A DNA stretch of 64,000 nucleotides, taken from NCBI RefSeq assembly GCF_016056375.1, contig NZ_JAEDAE010000001.1, forward strand, positions 62,001 to 126,000, written 5' to 3'. Of this stretch, positions 1,961 through 11,040 are shown piece by piece (positions within the stretch are counted from its first letter, which is position 1; each line of letters starts with the position of its first letter). The translations under genes were made by a program, and so were the position numbers. The notes under the pieces are model-generated. The model worked only from the letters and a program-made list of their open reading frames with translations. It made no database searches and was not told where the DNA came from. The DNA comes from Hymenobacter negativus (GTDB lineage Bacteria; Bacteroidota; Bacteroidia; Cytophagales; Hymenobacteraceae).

Positions 1961-2818
1961 TTACGGCATGGCCCACAGCGGCCGGCCCGCCATGGCCAGC
2001 GCAAACAGCCCGGCCACCGCGCCGGCATACAGCGCCGCCCCGGCCCAGGTGAGGCCGGTGGCTTGCTGCGGAGCCCAGCGGCTCAGGGCCCAGCCCAGCA
2101 GGGGCAGGGCTTGCAGAGCGTGCATGCCCAGGAAGTGCGCAATGCGCAGGTCGCCGGCGCGGGTGCTCCAGCCCAGGCCGGGCAGGCCGGGGCCGCCATC
2201 GGGCGCGCCCACGGTATGCTGCATATTATGAATCATGAAGCCGCCCAGCACGCTGCCCACCAGAAACACCAGCAGCCCCAGGCGCATGCCCCACACGTAG
2301 CTGGCCGGCCCGAACGGCTGATAGCGCCAGGCCAGGTACAGGGCCCACACCGTCATCAGCGTATTCACCAGAATGAACACGCCCATCAGCCCGAACAGAA
2401 TGGCGTTGAGCGCCGAGGCCGTGTTGTAGTGCGAGGTAGTACCCCGCGCCGCCTGCGTGAAAATCACGGCCTGCTCCACCATCATGCTCACGCCCACGCC
2501 CCAGCTCAGCAGCTGCACGCTGCGCTGGGCGGCAGCCGGGAGGTCGGCCAGCAGCCAGCCCAGCGTCCAGGCAAAGGCCGCGATGGACAGCGCAAACTTC
2601 AGCGGTTTCATCCACACCAGCGCCCCGGTTACGTGGCGCTGGTCGAAGGGCAGCAGCGCCAGGGCCAGCACGGCCAGGGCCACGTTCAGCCAGCCGGTGT
2701 AGGAGAGGACGGGGTTCACGCGATGCAGCAGGCGCAGGGCATCGCCCACGGTGCTGGCGGAAGGGGCAACGGCACTGAGCGGCGAAAAATCAGCCGCCGA
2801 AAGCAAGGTGGTTTTCAT
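1961..2818 (-). CDS. Polytopic membrane protein, function unknown
   Basis: 285 aa with seven or eight hydrophobic segments (for example residues about 42-60, 70-92, 105-125, 138-170, 180-205, 232-252 and 260-283) and an N-terminal soluble stretch of about 40 residues. A conserved-looking HFLGMHALQALP motif follows a Gly/Pro-rich loop. I do not recognise the family. It lies 42 nt downstream of the ABA4-like gene and 51 nt upstream of the kinase gene, all on the minus strand, so a four-gene unit is plausible. Start ATG at 2818. Confidence 0.8.
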   Translation of the reverse strand: MKTTLLSAADFSPLSAVAPSASTVGDALRLLHRVNPVLSYTGWLNVALAVLALALLPFDQRHVTGALVWMKPLKFALSIAAFAWTLGWLLADLPAAAQRSVQLLSWGVGVSMMVEQAVIFTQAARGTTSHYNTASALNAILFGLMGVFILVNTLMTVWALYLAWRYQPFGPASYVWGMRLGLLVFLVGSVLGGFMIHNMQHTVGAPDGGPGLPGLGWSTRAGDLRIAHFLGMHALQALPLLGWALSRWAPQQATGLTWAGAALYAGAVAGLFALAMAGRPLWAMP

Positions 2819-2860
2819 ATGGCGTAGCGTAGTAAGCGGGTTGATTTAAACGAGCAGTTA

Positions 2861-3301
2861 TCAGGCATCCCGGGCAGACTCCGGGTACCGGCTGCGCACC
2901 CCGAAATACAGCAGCAGCCCCACCGGCCCGAACATGAACGTGAGCAGCAGGCACGGCACCAGCAGCAAGTGCGGCACGCCGCGCCGGTGGGCATCGCGCA
3001 GCTCCCAGGCGCCGGTCCACATATCGAAGCAGAGGTAGTGAACCCAGCCGGCCAGCAGCGCCCACCGGTCGCGGAATAGCGCCGCCACGTCATCCAGGGA
3101 GCCAAAACCACCCTCGCCGCCGTGCGGCCCCAGGTAGTGCGTGGCAATGAGCACGGCGTAGGTTGCGGCCAGCAGCAAGGGCAGCGCGCCGCTGAGCACC
3201 ACGGCGCGGGTGCCGCGCCAGCGCGGGGCCAGCACCAGCAAGGCCCAGCCCAGCAGGGCCGCGGGGTTGGCGAGGGAAAACAGGAAATCGGGCGTGAGCA
3301 T
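2861..3301 (-). CDS. ABA4-like family membrane protein (DUF4281)
   Basis: 146 aa from ATG 3301 (MLTPDFLFSLANPAAL); a longer frame begins at TTG 3340 but the extension has no hydrophobic or conserved character. Four transmembrane segments. The motif WVHYLCFDMWTGAWELRDA and the C-terminal FMFGPVGLLLYFGVR match the ABA4-like family, named for the plant protein needed for neoxanthin synthesis. The bacterial role is undefined; a link to carotenoid or lipid metabolism is inference only. First gene of the probable unit running down to the LytTR regulator. Confidence 0.8.
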   Translation of the reverse strand: MLTPDFLFSLANPAALLGWALLVLAPRWRGTRAVVLSGALPLLLAATYAVLIATHYLGPHGGEGGFGSLDDVAALFRDRWALLAGWVHYLCFDMWTGAWELRDAHRRGVPHLLLVPCLLLTFMFGPVGLLLYFGVRSRYPESARDA

Positions 3302-3453
3302 GGGAGCAGGACGAAGAAGTTGGTCAAAGCTAGCGGCCAACCACAGGGGCGCGCCAGCCGTTTCGGGGCGAAGCGGCCAAACAACCGGGCGAAGCAGCGG
3401 TTGTGGCCGGGTGAAATTCCCGACCTTTGCCGTTGGTCGGTTTTTGGTTTGCT

Positions 3454-4152
3454 ATGTTCCGGTTGTTGCGTCTTGTGTGGTTGAGTATGGGCCTGCTGCC
3501 GGCGGGGGCGTGGGCACAGGGCGTTGGCCCGGCCCGGCCCGATTCGACGGTGCGCCGGCCCAACATCCTGCGCCTGCCGCACAACCGCTTCGTGGTGCAG
3601 TACGACTCGCGCTACTCCATCCTCAACCACCACCTCACCACCATCAACGGCCTCAAGCTGGGCATCGAGTTCAAGAGCCGCTTCCGGACCGGGGCGGCCA
3701 TCTACTTTCTCAGCACCGGCGTGCCCTCCCGCCAGGCCAAACCCGACAACGCCGCCGAAGACGCCGACGCCGAAATCCGTTTCCGTTACCTGGCCGCCTA
3801 CGCGGGCTACGTGCTGCTCGAAAACCGCCGCTGGGAGCTCAGCGCCAACCTGCAGGCGGGCCTGGGCTCGGCCTACGTGCTCTATGAGGCCGACGACGGC
3901 GACCTCGACAAAACCCCGCGCGAGTTTATGGGCATTGTGGAGCCCACGCTGGCCGCTCAGTACCGCGTGTTTCGCTGGGGCGGGGTGGGCACGGGCCTGG
4001 GCTGGCGGCAGCCGGTGTTCGTGCCCGTTGCCATTCAGAAAGAACTGAATGGCCCGGTGTTCTACCTGCGCGCCAACCTGTTTCTGGGCGAGCTATTCAA
4101 GGTGATGAAGGACAAGGAGCCGCTCTTCACCCAGACCAACATGCGCCCCTAA
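3454..4152 (+). CDS. Secreted or outer-membrane beta-rich protein, unknown
   Basis: 232 aa from ATG 3454 (MFRLLRLVWLSMG), which begins a signal peptide ending near GAWAQG; a TTG nine codons upstream would spoil the signal. The mature part alternates hydrophobic and aromatic residues (FVVQYDSRYSIL, RYLAAYAGYVLL, WELSANLQAGLGSAYVLYEA, GVGTGLGWRQPV), typical of a small beta-barrel or conjugal-transfer-like outer-membrane protein. No family assigned. It converges on the trypsin-like lipoprotein gene, with a hairpin between them. Confidence 0.7.
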   Translation: MFRLLRLVWLSMGLLPAGAWAQGVGPARPDSTVRRPNILRLPHNRFVVQYDSRYSILNHHLTTINGLKLGIEFKSRFRTGAAIYFLSTGVPSRQAKPDNAAEDADAEIRFRYLAAYAGYVLLENRRWELSANLQAGLGSAYVLYEADDGDLDKTPREFMGIVEPTLAAQYRVFRWGGVGTGLGWRQPVFVPVAIQKELNGPVFYLRANLFLGELFKVMKDKEPLFTQTNMRP

Positions 4153-9264: not shown

Positions 9265-11040
9265 TTACGAAAAGGCTTGTTTCACCGCACTACGGTATTC
9301 CTCGAAAAACGCCGCGTTGGTCTTCGAGTCGGTGAAGACTTCCAGAATGGCCGCGCCGGTTTCGGCTGCAAAGAAAACCGGTAGCGCGGCTTCAAGTTCG
9401 GCGAAGGATGAAACCGGGAAGTAGCGCAGGTTAAAATCCTTGGCCGTGTTCTCGGCTGTGAGCAGCTGGCGCGTCTCAAAAAACTCGTCCAGCTCCGGCT
9501 GCTGCCGCGGCCCGTCGATGATGCGGAAGATGCCGCCGCCGTGGTTATTGAACAGTACCACCCGCAGGTTGGGCAGCGGGTAATTGTGCCAGAAGGCGTT
9601 GCGGTCGTAGAAAAACGCCACATCGCCGGTGAGCAGAACTACCGGCCGCCCAGGTTGCGCCAAAGCCGCGCCTACGGCCGTTGAGTTGCAGCCGTCGATA
9701 CCGCTGGTGCCGCGGTTGGCGAAGACTTCGATTTGCCGGCCCTGCGGAATGCCGAGGATGTTGGCGTAGCGCACGGCCATGCTGTTGGCGAGGTGCAGGG
9801 CCACTTGCTCGGGTAGTGTCGCCAGGGTGTGGCGGAAGGCCGAGAATTCGTTGAATGGCTGCGTGTCGTCAACAAAAAAAAACTTCAGAAACTCAGCAGC
9901 TGCAGCGTCAGCTCGTTGCCAGGTTGCATATTCAGTGGAACCAACTGAACCCGAGCCGGAAGCAAGTTGATTATTAGCAAAGAAGGAGGGATTCGAACCT
10001 TCGGACCTTTCGCCCTCACTGGTTTTCAAGACCGAAAGCTGCTGAAAGAATACCGCCGGTGCTACCCGCACCACCCGGGTAAGCGAGCGGAAGGTATCGG
10101 CCGCTTCGCCAGCCGCTTGCAGGTGCCAGTGTTGAGCCGGGGCCGCGTCACGCAAAAACAGTTTCAGGCTTTTCGAAATCAGCGACTGGCCGAATGTGAT
10201 AAGCAAATCCGGCTTTAAAGCGGCCTTGTCGTCCTTGCCCAGCCCCGCCAGAAAAATATCCTGCCGCTGCACAGCCGCAACTTCGCCCACGTTGGCAATA
10301 ATGTCACCCACCACCGCCACCTTCCGGGCTTTCGCAAACTCGTAAAGCGCCGCCAGCAGCCCGGGGTTGTTGGGTTGCTGGCCGGCTACTACCAGCACAT
10401 GGCCGGCGGCCCGCAACTGCTGGTGCAGCTCCAGAATCTCGGCAGGCGAAAGCGTTGCGTTAGAAGCATATTCATGAACAATCTTCACATCCTTCTCATA
10501 CCCAATTCCCTCCCCCGCCTTCGGGTAGAACGGCTCCCGCAGCGGCACATTCACCTGCACCGGCCCAGCGGGCGCGGCCTGCGCCAGATTAATGGCCTCG
10601 TTCACAATACGCGCCGAATGCCACTTGGCATCAGCGTGTGAGGTATCGACGGGAAACTCAAACTCGCACTTGGCGTGCGCGCCGTACAAATTGCGCTGGC
10701 GGATGGTCTGCCCATCCAACTGGTCAATCCATTCGGGCGGACGGTCGGCGGTGAAAATCACCAGCGGAATCTGCTGGAAAAAAGCCTCTGCTACAGCGGG
10801 AGCGTAGTTCAACCCGGCCGTGCCGGAGGTGCATACCAGCGCCACCGCCCGCCGTTGTGCCTGCGCAATGCCGAGGCCGATGAAGGCTGCCGCCCGCTCA
10901 TCGGGCACCACGCGCACATTCAAATCGGGGTGGCGCGCAAACGCCAGCGTGAGCGGCGCCGAGCGCGAGCCCGGCGACAAAACGACATCGGTAATGCCAT
11001 GACGGGCGCAGATTTCGGCGATGTTATAAACAGCTTGCAT
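9265..11040 (-). CDS. menD: SEPHCHC synthase (MenD)
   Basis: ThDP-dependent synthase making 2-succinyl-5-enolpyruvyl-6-hydroxy-3-cyclohexene-1-carboxylate from isochorismate and 2-oxoglutarate. 591 aa, longer than the usual 550-575. N-terminal ThDP-fold domain (GITDVVLSPGSRSAPLTLAF, VCTSGTAGLNYAPAVAEA), central domain to about residue 335, C-terminal ThDP-binding domain with GDVAFFYDRNAF and FNNHGGGIF. The extra length sits at residues about 336-370 between the central and C-terminal domains, where the DNA is a piece of tRNA-Ser. The frame is intact and all catalytic regions are present, so it is probably functional. It lies 19 nt downstream of menF. Confidence 0.94.
   Translation of the reverse strand: MQAVYNIAEICARHGITDVVLSPGSRSAPLTLAFARHPDLNVRVVPDERAAAFIGLGIAQAQRRAVALVCTSGTAGLNYAPAVAEAFFQQIPLVIFTADRPPEWIDQLDGQTIRQRNLYGAHAKCEFEFPVDTSHADAKWHSARIVNEAINLAQAAPAGPVQVNVPLREPFYPKAGEGIGYEKDVKIVHEYASNATLSPAEILELHQQLRAAGHVLVVAGQQPNNPGLLAALYEFAKARKVAVVGDIIANVGEVAAVQRQDIFLAGLGKDDKAALKPDLLITFGQSLISKSLKLFLRDAAPAQHWHLQAAGEAADTFRSLTRVVRVAPAVFFQQLSVLKTSEGERSEGSNPSFFANNQLASGSGSVGSTEYATWQRADAAAAEFLKFFFVDDTQPFNEFSAFRHTLATLPEQVALHLANSMAVRYANILGIPQGRQIEVFANRGTSGIDGCNSTAVGAALAQPGRPVVLLTGDVAFFYDRNAFWHNYPLPNLRVVLFNNHGGGIFRIIDGPRQQPELDEFFETRQLLTAENTAKDFNLRYFPVSSFAELEAALPVFFAAETGAAILEVFTDSKTNAAFFEEYRSAVKQAFS
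9976..10034 (-). other. tRNA-Ser-derived fragment within menD
   Basis: On the minus strand the sequence runs CGGTCTTGAAAACC (anticodon arm of tRNA-Ser with anticodon TGA), a variable arm TGAGGGCGAAAGGTCC, then GGTTCGAATCC (T arm) and a degenerate acceptor 3' strand CTTCTTTGCT. Order and spacing match a class II tRNA. The 5' half (acceptor 5' strand and D arm) is absent, so it is not a working tRNA. It is read in frame as part of MenD (residues about 336-355, SVLKTSEGERSEGSNPSFFA). Confidence 0.82.

Follow-up and report, generated by a model that had tools for sequence, protein, structure and literature searches.

Sequence evidence for repeated capture of tRNA and tmRNA segments in one MenD linker across the genus Hymenobacter

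In Rickettsia and Wolbachia, palindromic elements are described as short DNA inserts lying in frame within housekeeping genes; orthologues carry inserted DNA too, and in one gene both kinds share a region (PMC3767692, PMC10969869). For tRNA pieces in MenD, no earlier report was among the matches listed in open-access PMC full text, which leaves most subscription papers outside. The locus analyzed here is the menD gene within a 64,000-nucleotide stretch of Hymenobacter negativus DNA (the window). Its product met the TIGR00173 menD test with 373.9 bits against a cut-off of 244.2, covering model positions 3-434 of 435, and its best PDB relatives are MenD proteins (e.g., 2x7j, E 3.3e-65). The flanking genes belong to the Pfam families ECH_1, Chorismate_bind, 4HBT, AMP-binding, and His_Phos_1, from which we infer an ordinary menaquinone gene neighborhood. 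The features of the gene are collected in Table 1.

Table 1. Features of menD in the window, in window positions
Feature	Positions	Strand	Basis
menD, 591 aa, 2-succinyl-5-enolpyruvyl-6-hydroxy-3-cyclohexene-1-carboxylate synthase	9265..11040	-	ORF; TIGR00173; PDB relatives
Hypervariable MenD linker, residues 319-406	9823..10086	-	orthologue comparison
tRNA-Ser(TGA)-derived segment, nt 29-86 (anticodon arm to 3' end), in frame as residues 336-355	9977..10034	-	
Anticodon-arm part GGTCTTGAAAACC, coding for VLKT	10021..10033	-	
T-arm GGTTCGAATCC, coding for GSNP; phase as in 65/67 linker T-arms (at most one mismatch)	9989..9999	-	

The first-pass annotation had placed a tRNA-Ser fragment lacking its 5' half at 9976-10034, translated in frame in the linker before the C-terminal domain of MenD. 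The coordinates were correct to one base, the alignment to the tRNA is ungapped, the acceptor and D arms (the 5' part of tRNA-Ser) are indeed absent, and the menD reading frame is open throughout the segment at the proposed residues. The donor, tRNA-Ser(TGA), is an intact gene elsewhere in the assembly (G000:C12, locus L002 1473-1558), and the match from anticodon arm to 3' end is collinear over 58 nt with approximately 81% identity. The Smith-Waterman score of this pair was 33, compared to a maximum of 13 among 30 codon shuffles of the window linker, and a search of the whole genome (5.14 Mb) with the segment recovered the tRNA-Ser match at 82% over 61 nt (E 2.1e-10). The same search, at E values up to 0.001, returned menD and the tRNA-Ser gene and nothing else. 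The segment does not qualify as a functional tRNA gene: ARAGORN detected no tRNA anywhere in the window, and at the segment no Rfam family reached its gathering score and RF00005 was not reported; half of the molecule is gone and the remainder has diverged. The Rfam candidates obtained at a lax threshold, including a weak tRNA-Sec alignment at 9982-10069 (13.6 bits, E 7.7), were at chance level and were discarded. The tRNA origin of the segment is well supported.

MenD was found in 119 of 120 Hymenobacter genomes and in 57 of 59 mixed relatives. The linker was compared in 116 of the 119; those excluded were G017 (menD cut by contig ends), G110 (frameshift), and G061, which has a short linker with no insert. 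Its length is 62-160 aa in Hymenobacter, with a median of 108, versus 59-74 aa in 13 genomes from other genera of the order. The closest insert-free relatives of the window sequence, L005 and L006, lack the segment residues, as the predicted orthologue gap required, and have linkers of 65 aa versus 88 in the window; the segment explains most of these 23 extra residues. L005 is also the nearest row to the window sequence, with 94% core identity, in a quick tree of MenD from 115 genus rows, with the linker omitted (L044 was too short), in which 42 of 115 inner branches are weak. L115 (H. cyanobacteriorum), a member of the same five-row clade as the window, has a tRNA-Ser(TGA) piece in the corresponding position, so that the insert-free state of L005 and L006 may reflect either a piece never gained or one lost. 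At least 20 presence/absence changes are needed on this tree, a figure in which missed decayed copies count as absence. The linker is read through in 117 of the 119 genomes with MenD, the exceptions being G017 with its contig ends and G110, which has a REP-like insert and a frameshift. The menD pieces satisfy the palindromic-element criterion of in-frame insertion at a fixed place in orthologues.

The window segment is not the single oddity that it had appeared to be, for which small repeats or integration sites had been proposed, but one among many tRNA and tmRNA pieces in the same linker across the genus. When the linkers were compared with the 41 different tRNAs of the window genome, 42 of 116 contained tRNA segments scoring at least 15. 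At the same threshold, matches were found in 1 of 232 codon-shuffled strands, in none of 13 linkers from other genera, and in 3 of 240 pieces of menD upstream of the linker (40 genomes), the last all antisense, at one place, and in three related genomes. About ten tRNAs served as donors (Ser-TGA, Ser-GGA, Ser-GCT, Arg-TCT, Arg-CCG, Arg-ACG, Met, Lys, Phe, and Cys, plus two weaker labels), and tmRNA is a further donor in one clade. The labels derive from the tRNA set of the window genome (41 sequences, with an ARAGORN prediction from the RtcB spacer removed), so they may be wrong for donors in other species. Most matches run to the tRNA 3' end; some Arg-CCG matches stop earlier, and that of L187 is almost the whole tRNA (nt 2-73). 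Four different tRNA pieces stand in tandem in L023 (H. setariae). In H. sediminis (G107), the menD segment reached 28.4 bits with the Rfam tRNA model, for which the gathering score is 29, and outranks every other tRNA-like place that falls short of the Rfam cut-off in that genome. The remaining 74 of 116 linkers gave no tRNA match; many of them are long and stem from sources that are unknown, decayed, or REP-like. On these sequence comparisons, we conclude that tRNA and tmRNA pieces have been captured repeatedly in one MenD linker across the genus. Individual fragments are short, as chance similarity or an assembly artifact would have them, and yet their scores lie far above those of the shuffles, such an origin is contradicted by the counts of 42 positive linkers in 116 and of 67 T-arms (below), and such pieces are present in assemblies made independently, one of them the complete chromosome of Hymenobacter sp. 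BRD67 (L292, G005); we regard this explanation as practically negligible.

T-arms with at most one mismatch numbered 67 in the linkers, versus a mean of 1.4 and a maximum of 6 in 100 shuffles, and the rest of menD (183,360 bases) contained none. A single phase, GGT-TCG, is used by 65 of the 67. Sense tRNA matches were in that phase in 60 of 63 cases, the other three being Arg-TCT, a count obtained by position arithmetic in which a gap in L038 was ignored. All 42 positive linkers contain sense matches, and the three antisense matches among them overlap sense ones; eight antisense T-arms had at most one mismatch, for which no antisense shuffle baseline is available. The notion that antisense insertion is absent was rejected because tmRNA 3' ends sit antisense in one clade. 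Stop-codon bias was likewise rejected as the cause of the sense orientation, since the 3' parts of tRNAs offer open frames in 79 of 123 sense and 72 of 123 antisense cases. If donors had entered independently in any open frame, the joint chance of the observed phase and orientation would be approximately 1e-6; this figure presumes donor independence and is a guide only. Selection for a G-S-x-P loop could alternatively give rise to the single phase and orientation.

In hybrid pieces, the switch from one donor to another sits at the T-arm. The L004 piece is Ser-TGA-like as in the window, continues as Ser-GGA (23/23), and is followed by an Arg-TCT piece, while an L023 piece passes from Ser-TGA to Ser-GCT with 24/24 positions identical to the gene of its own genome. 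In one clade, a tmRNA 3' end lying antisense meets a sense Arg-TCT 3' end head-to-head, the two being fused at the palindrome TTCGAA. The tmRNA donor places were confirmed by ARAGORN, and menD of H. sediminis agrees with its own tmRNA at 21 of 22 positions. With up to three mismatches allowed, a menD tmRNA match was found in two of the four genomes searched (G002 and G107); the menD copy of G093 lies beyond that limit, and G033 belongs to another clade. Donor changes at the T-arm are the product that would be expected of exchange through a shared T-arm or of deletion between T-arm direct repeats.

Taking these observations together, we consider it probable, though well short of established, that a permissive linker caught tRNA 3' ends, which were then exchanged and multiplied by way of the shared T-arm while selection on MenD kept the frame. 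On this reading, the loop between the middle and C-terminal MenD domains tolerates insertion and has been the site of repeated uptake from tRNA and tmRNA 3' ends. An ordinary tRNA 3' fragment, like those found beside integrases in Hymenobacter genomes, may have served as the first seed. Once seeded, the T-arm GGTTCGANTCC, common to most tRNAs and to tmRNA, would provide a short homology through which other tRNA genes might be copied in by template switching or ectopic recombination; T-arm direct repeats could then expand or contract the array, and MenD selection would retain in-frame products and discard the rest. The DNA mechanism, including the copying step, is inferred, and no intermediate has been seen. 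Counting against T-arm-guided copying, the insert-free linkers of L005 and L006 contain no TTCGA and therefore no T-arm seed, and integrase-adjoining tRNA 3' fragments in Hymenobacter have the same shape as the menD pieces. The 74 linkers without a tRNA match and the eight antisense T-arms weigh on the same side. A stronger version holds that T-arm-directed capture is still going on, with the linker as a landing platform where tRNA and tmRNA genes are sampled and become new protein sequence, perhaps through a dedicated recombinase or polymerase activity; we consider this version doubtful.

The main rival to the permissive-linker reading is that tyrosine recombinases using tRNA or tmRNA 3' ends inserted integrative elements at or near menD, the loss of which left attachment-site fragments in frame. 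The pieces start at the anticodon arm or T-arm and extend to the 3' end of the tRNA, in the manner of two fragments found near phage-integrase-family genes, nt 50-83 of tRNA-Leu(CAA) (L102/L307) and nt 29-75 of tRNA-Ala (L203/L309), and tmRNA, a classic integration site, is among the donors. The window segment satisfies the first criterion of an attachment footprint, in that it derives from the 3' part of a tRNA and stops at the 3' end of the gene; the second, an adjoining integrase or element, is not fulfilled, as judged from the Pfam families flanking menD and from the read-through in 117 of 119 genomes. About ten donors would, moreover, require as many integrases acting on one protein gene, L187 retains a nearly complete tRNA-Arg, and the Leu(CAA) fragment lies in inverted orientation to its tRNA and hence does not form a plain att pair. 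The integrase explanation is weakened because no such element was observed in menD and the donors outnumber what one enzyme could account for, and we hold it to be possible but unlikely. At the Leu(CAA) locus itself (L307, G000:C19:113800-127300), tRNA-Leu(CAA) and an inverted, exact 34-nt copy of its 3' end flank two phage-integrase-family genes.

Reverse transcription of tRNA 3' fragments followed by insertion of the cDNA would favor 3' ends and allow many donors, as observed, and L034 and L041 read CCCACCA where the tRNA-Met gene of the window genome has no encoded CCA. The freshest copy (L014/L016, 55/57 nt) nevertheless stops at C74 and continues with GG, not CA, and random insertion predicts both orientations and all phases; we think this route very improbable. 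As a separate observation, CCA is encoded in only 6 of the 41 different tRNA sequences of the window genome, and nearly all others end at C74.

Constraint on the linker bears on a further possibility, that the segments act in the menD mRNA by binding a tRNA-handling factor or steering mRNA processing. In 19 chosen pairs, nucleotide divergence in the middle of the linker was 0.6-1.7 times that at fourfold sites of the remaining gene, and linker amino acid divergence was 3-12 times that of the core. In an AlphaFold2 model (27 sequences, mean pLDDT 83), residues 339-366 have pLDDT below 50 and lie between two helices. Given the near-neutral divergence and the low pLDDT, the insert looks like a tolerated disordered loop in a linker that is about neutral, an interpretation that depends in part on the predicted structure. 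For the Arg-CCG pieces, identity to the tRNA was 83% in the D-arm, 83% in the T-arm, and 63% in the anticodon arm (13 sequences, a small set picked by similarity), and the better-kept D-arm and T-arm are not predicted by neutrality alone. This pattern, together with the sense orientation of nearly all pieces, would suit an RNA-level function; set against it, the linker diverges about as fast as fourfold sites, the window has a segment that its closest row, L005, is without, and many T-arms are mismatched (29 of 96 with two mismatches). We judge an RNA role to be quite unlikely, and this and cDNA insertion are both less likely than integrase footprints.

We surveyed tRNA-like sequence outside tRNA genes with the T-arm pattern, which occurs 86 times in the window genome versus 31 for the reversed pattern. 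The 21 GGTTCG-type regions were taken and the 23 GGTTCA-type places left out; the convincing tRNA-like places were the TROVE/RtcB spacer, the tmRNA gene, an array amid phage-like genes, and the Leu(CAA) fragment near phage-integrase-family genes. Leaving aside tRNA genes, menD, and the RtcB spacer, three further genomes yielded 12 places: two tmRNA, one (L205) with the same matched letters as one of these tmRNA places, one Ala fragment near a phage-integrase-family gene, a short Pro-like match (score 18) antisense to an open frame, and others scoring at most 15. Two weak G033 places (C8:289799 and C10:513581) were left out of this survey, and a Val-like fragment in G005 (L210) has no open frame across it. 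The four-genome T-arm survey thus detected no second coding gene with tRNA pieces, and MenD is therefore a hot spot, not part of a genome-wide spread, as far as pattern-fitting T-arms are concerned. The Rickettsia-type criterion of a repeat family dispersed over many genes is not met, no such family having been found by the own-genome segment search or the four-genome survey.

Several of the other loci have features of their own. In L083 (G000:C12:536500-543000), a spacer at about 2535-3744 between TROVE-domain and RtcB genes holds five T-arm matches and weak tRNA-like elements, which are perhaps Y-RNA-like; T-arm clusters also occur at single places in G033 and G107, where the neighboring genes were not determined. 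At L097/L226 (G000:C15, about 186681-186743), three truncated tRNA 3' ends stand in tandem without spacers, Met, Leu-like, and Ser-like, the latter two recognized by eye. This array was rejected as a second coding case: it lies among phage-like genes, and its open frame has no Pfam match. Within MenD linkers themselves, a REP-like repeat (SPPxPLS...ERGxGGE or similar, by eye) was seen in L031, L147, L175, L180, L188, L190, and L186, in the last of which (G110) the frame is broken inside the repeat.

The findings indicate that structural-RNA genes were repeatedly turned into protein-coding sequence at one spot of a central vitamin K2 pathway enzyme, genus-wide. They account for a hypervariable MenD loop, which would pass for lineage-specific sequence if protein annotation were the only guide, and the fresh, hybrid, and decayed copies form a natural series for working out the DNA mechanism that moves tRNA 3' ends. 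The REP-like inverted repeats occupy the same linker in other Hymenobacter (e.g., L031 and L175) as the tRNA pieces do, but they are not tRNA-derived. Prophage arrays of truncated tRNAs resemble menD in their tandem tRNA 3' ends (compare L097/L226), whereas that array belongs to no known protein. Attachment sites of integrative elements involve the same tRNA and tmRNA 3' segments; the menD pieces differ in lying within a reading frame, in having many donors and tandem and hybrid forms, and in the absence of any visible element. The nearest known case is that of the Rickettsia palindromic elements, which menD resembles in having in-frame inserts in a housekeeping gene; those elements are repeat families scattered through numerous genes, whereas in menD a single gene receives material from tmRNA and from many unrelated tRNA genes.
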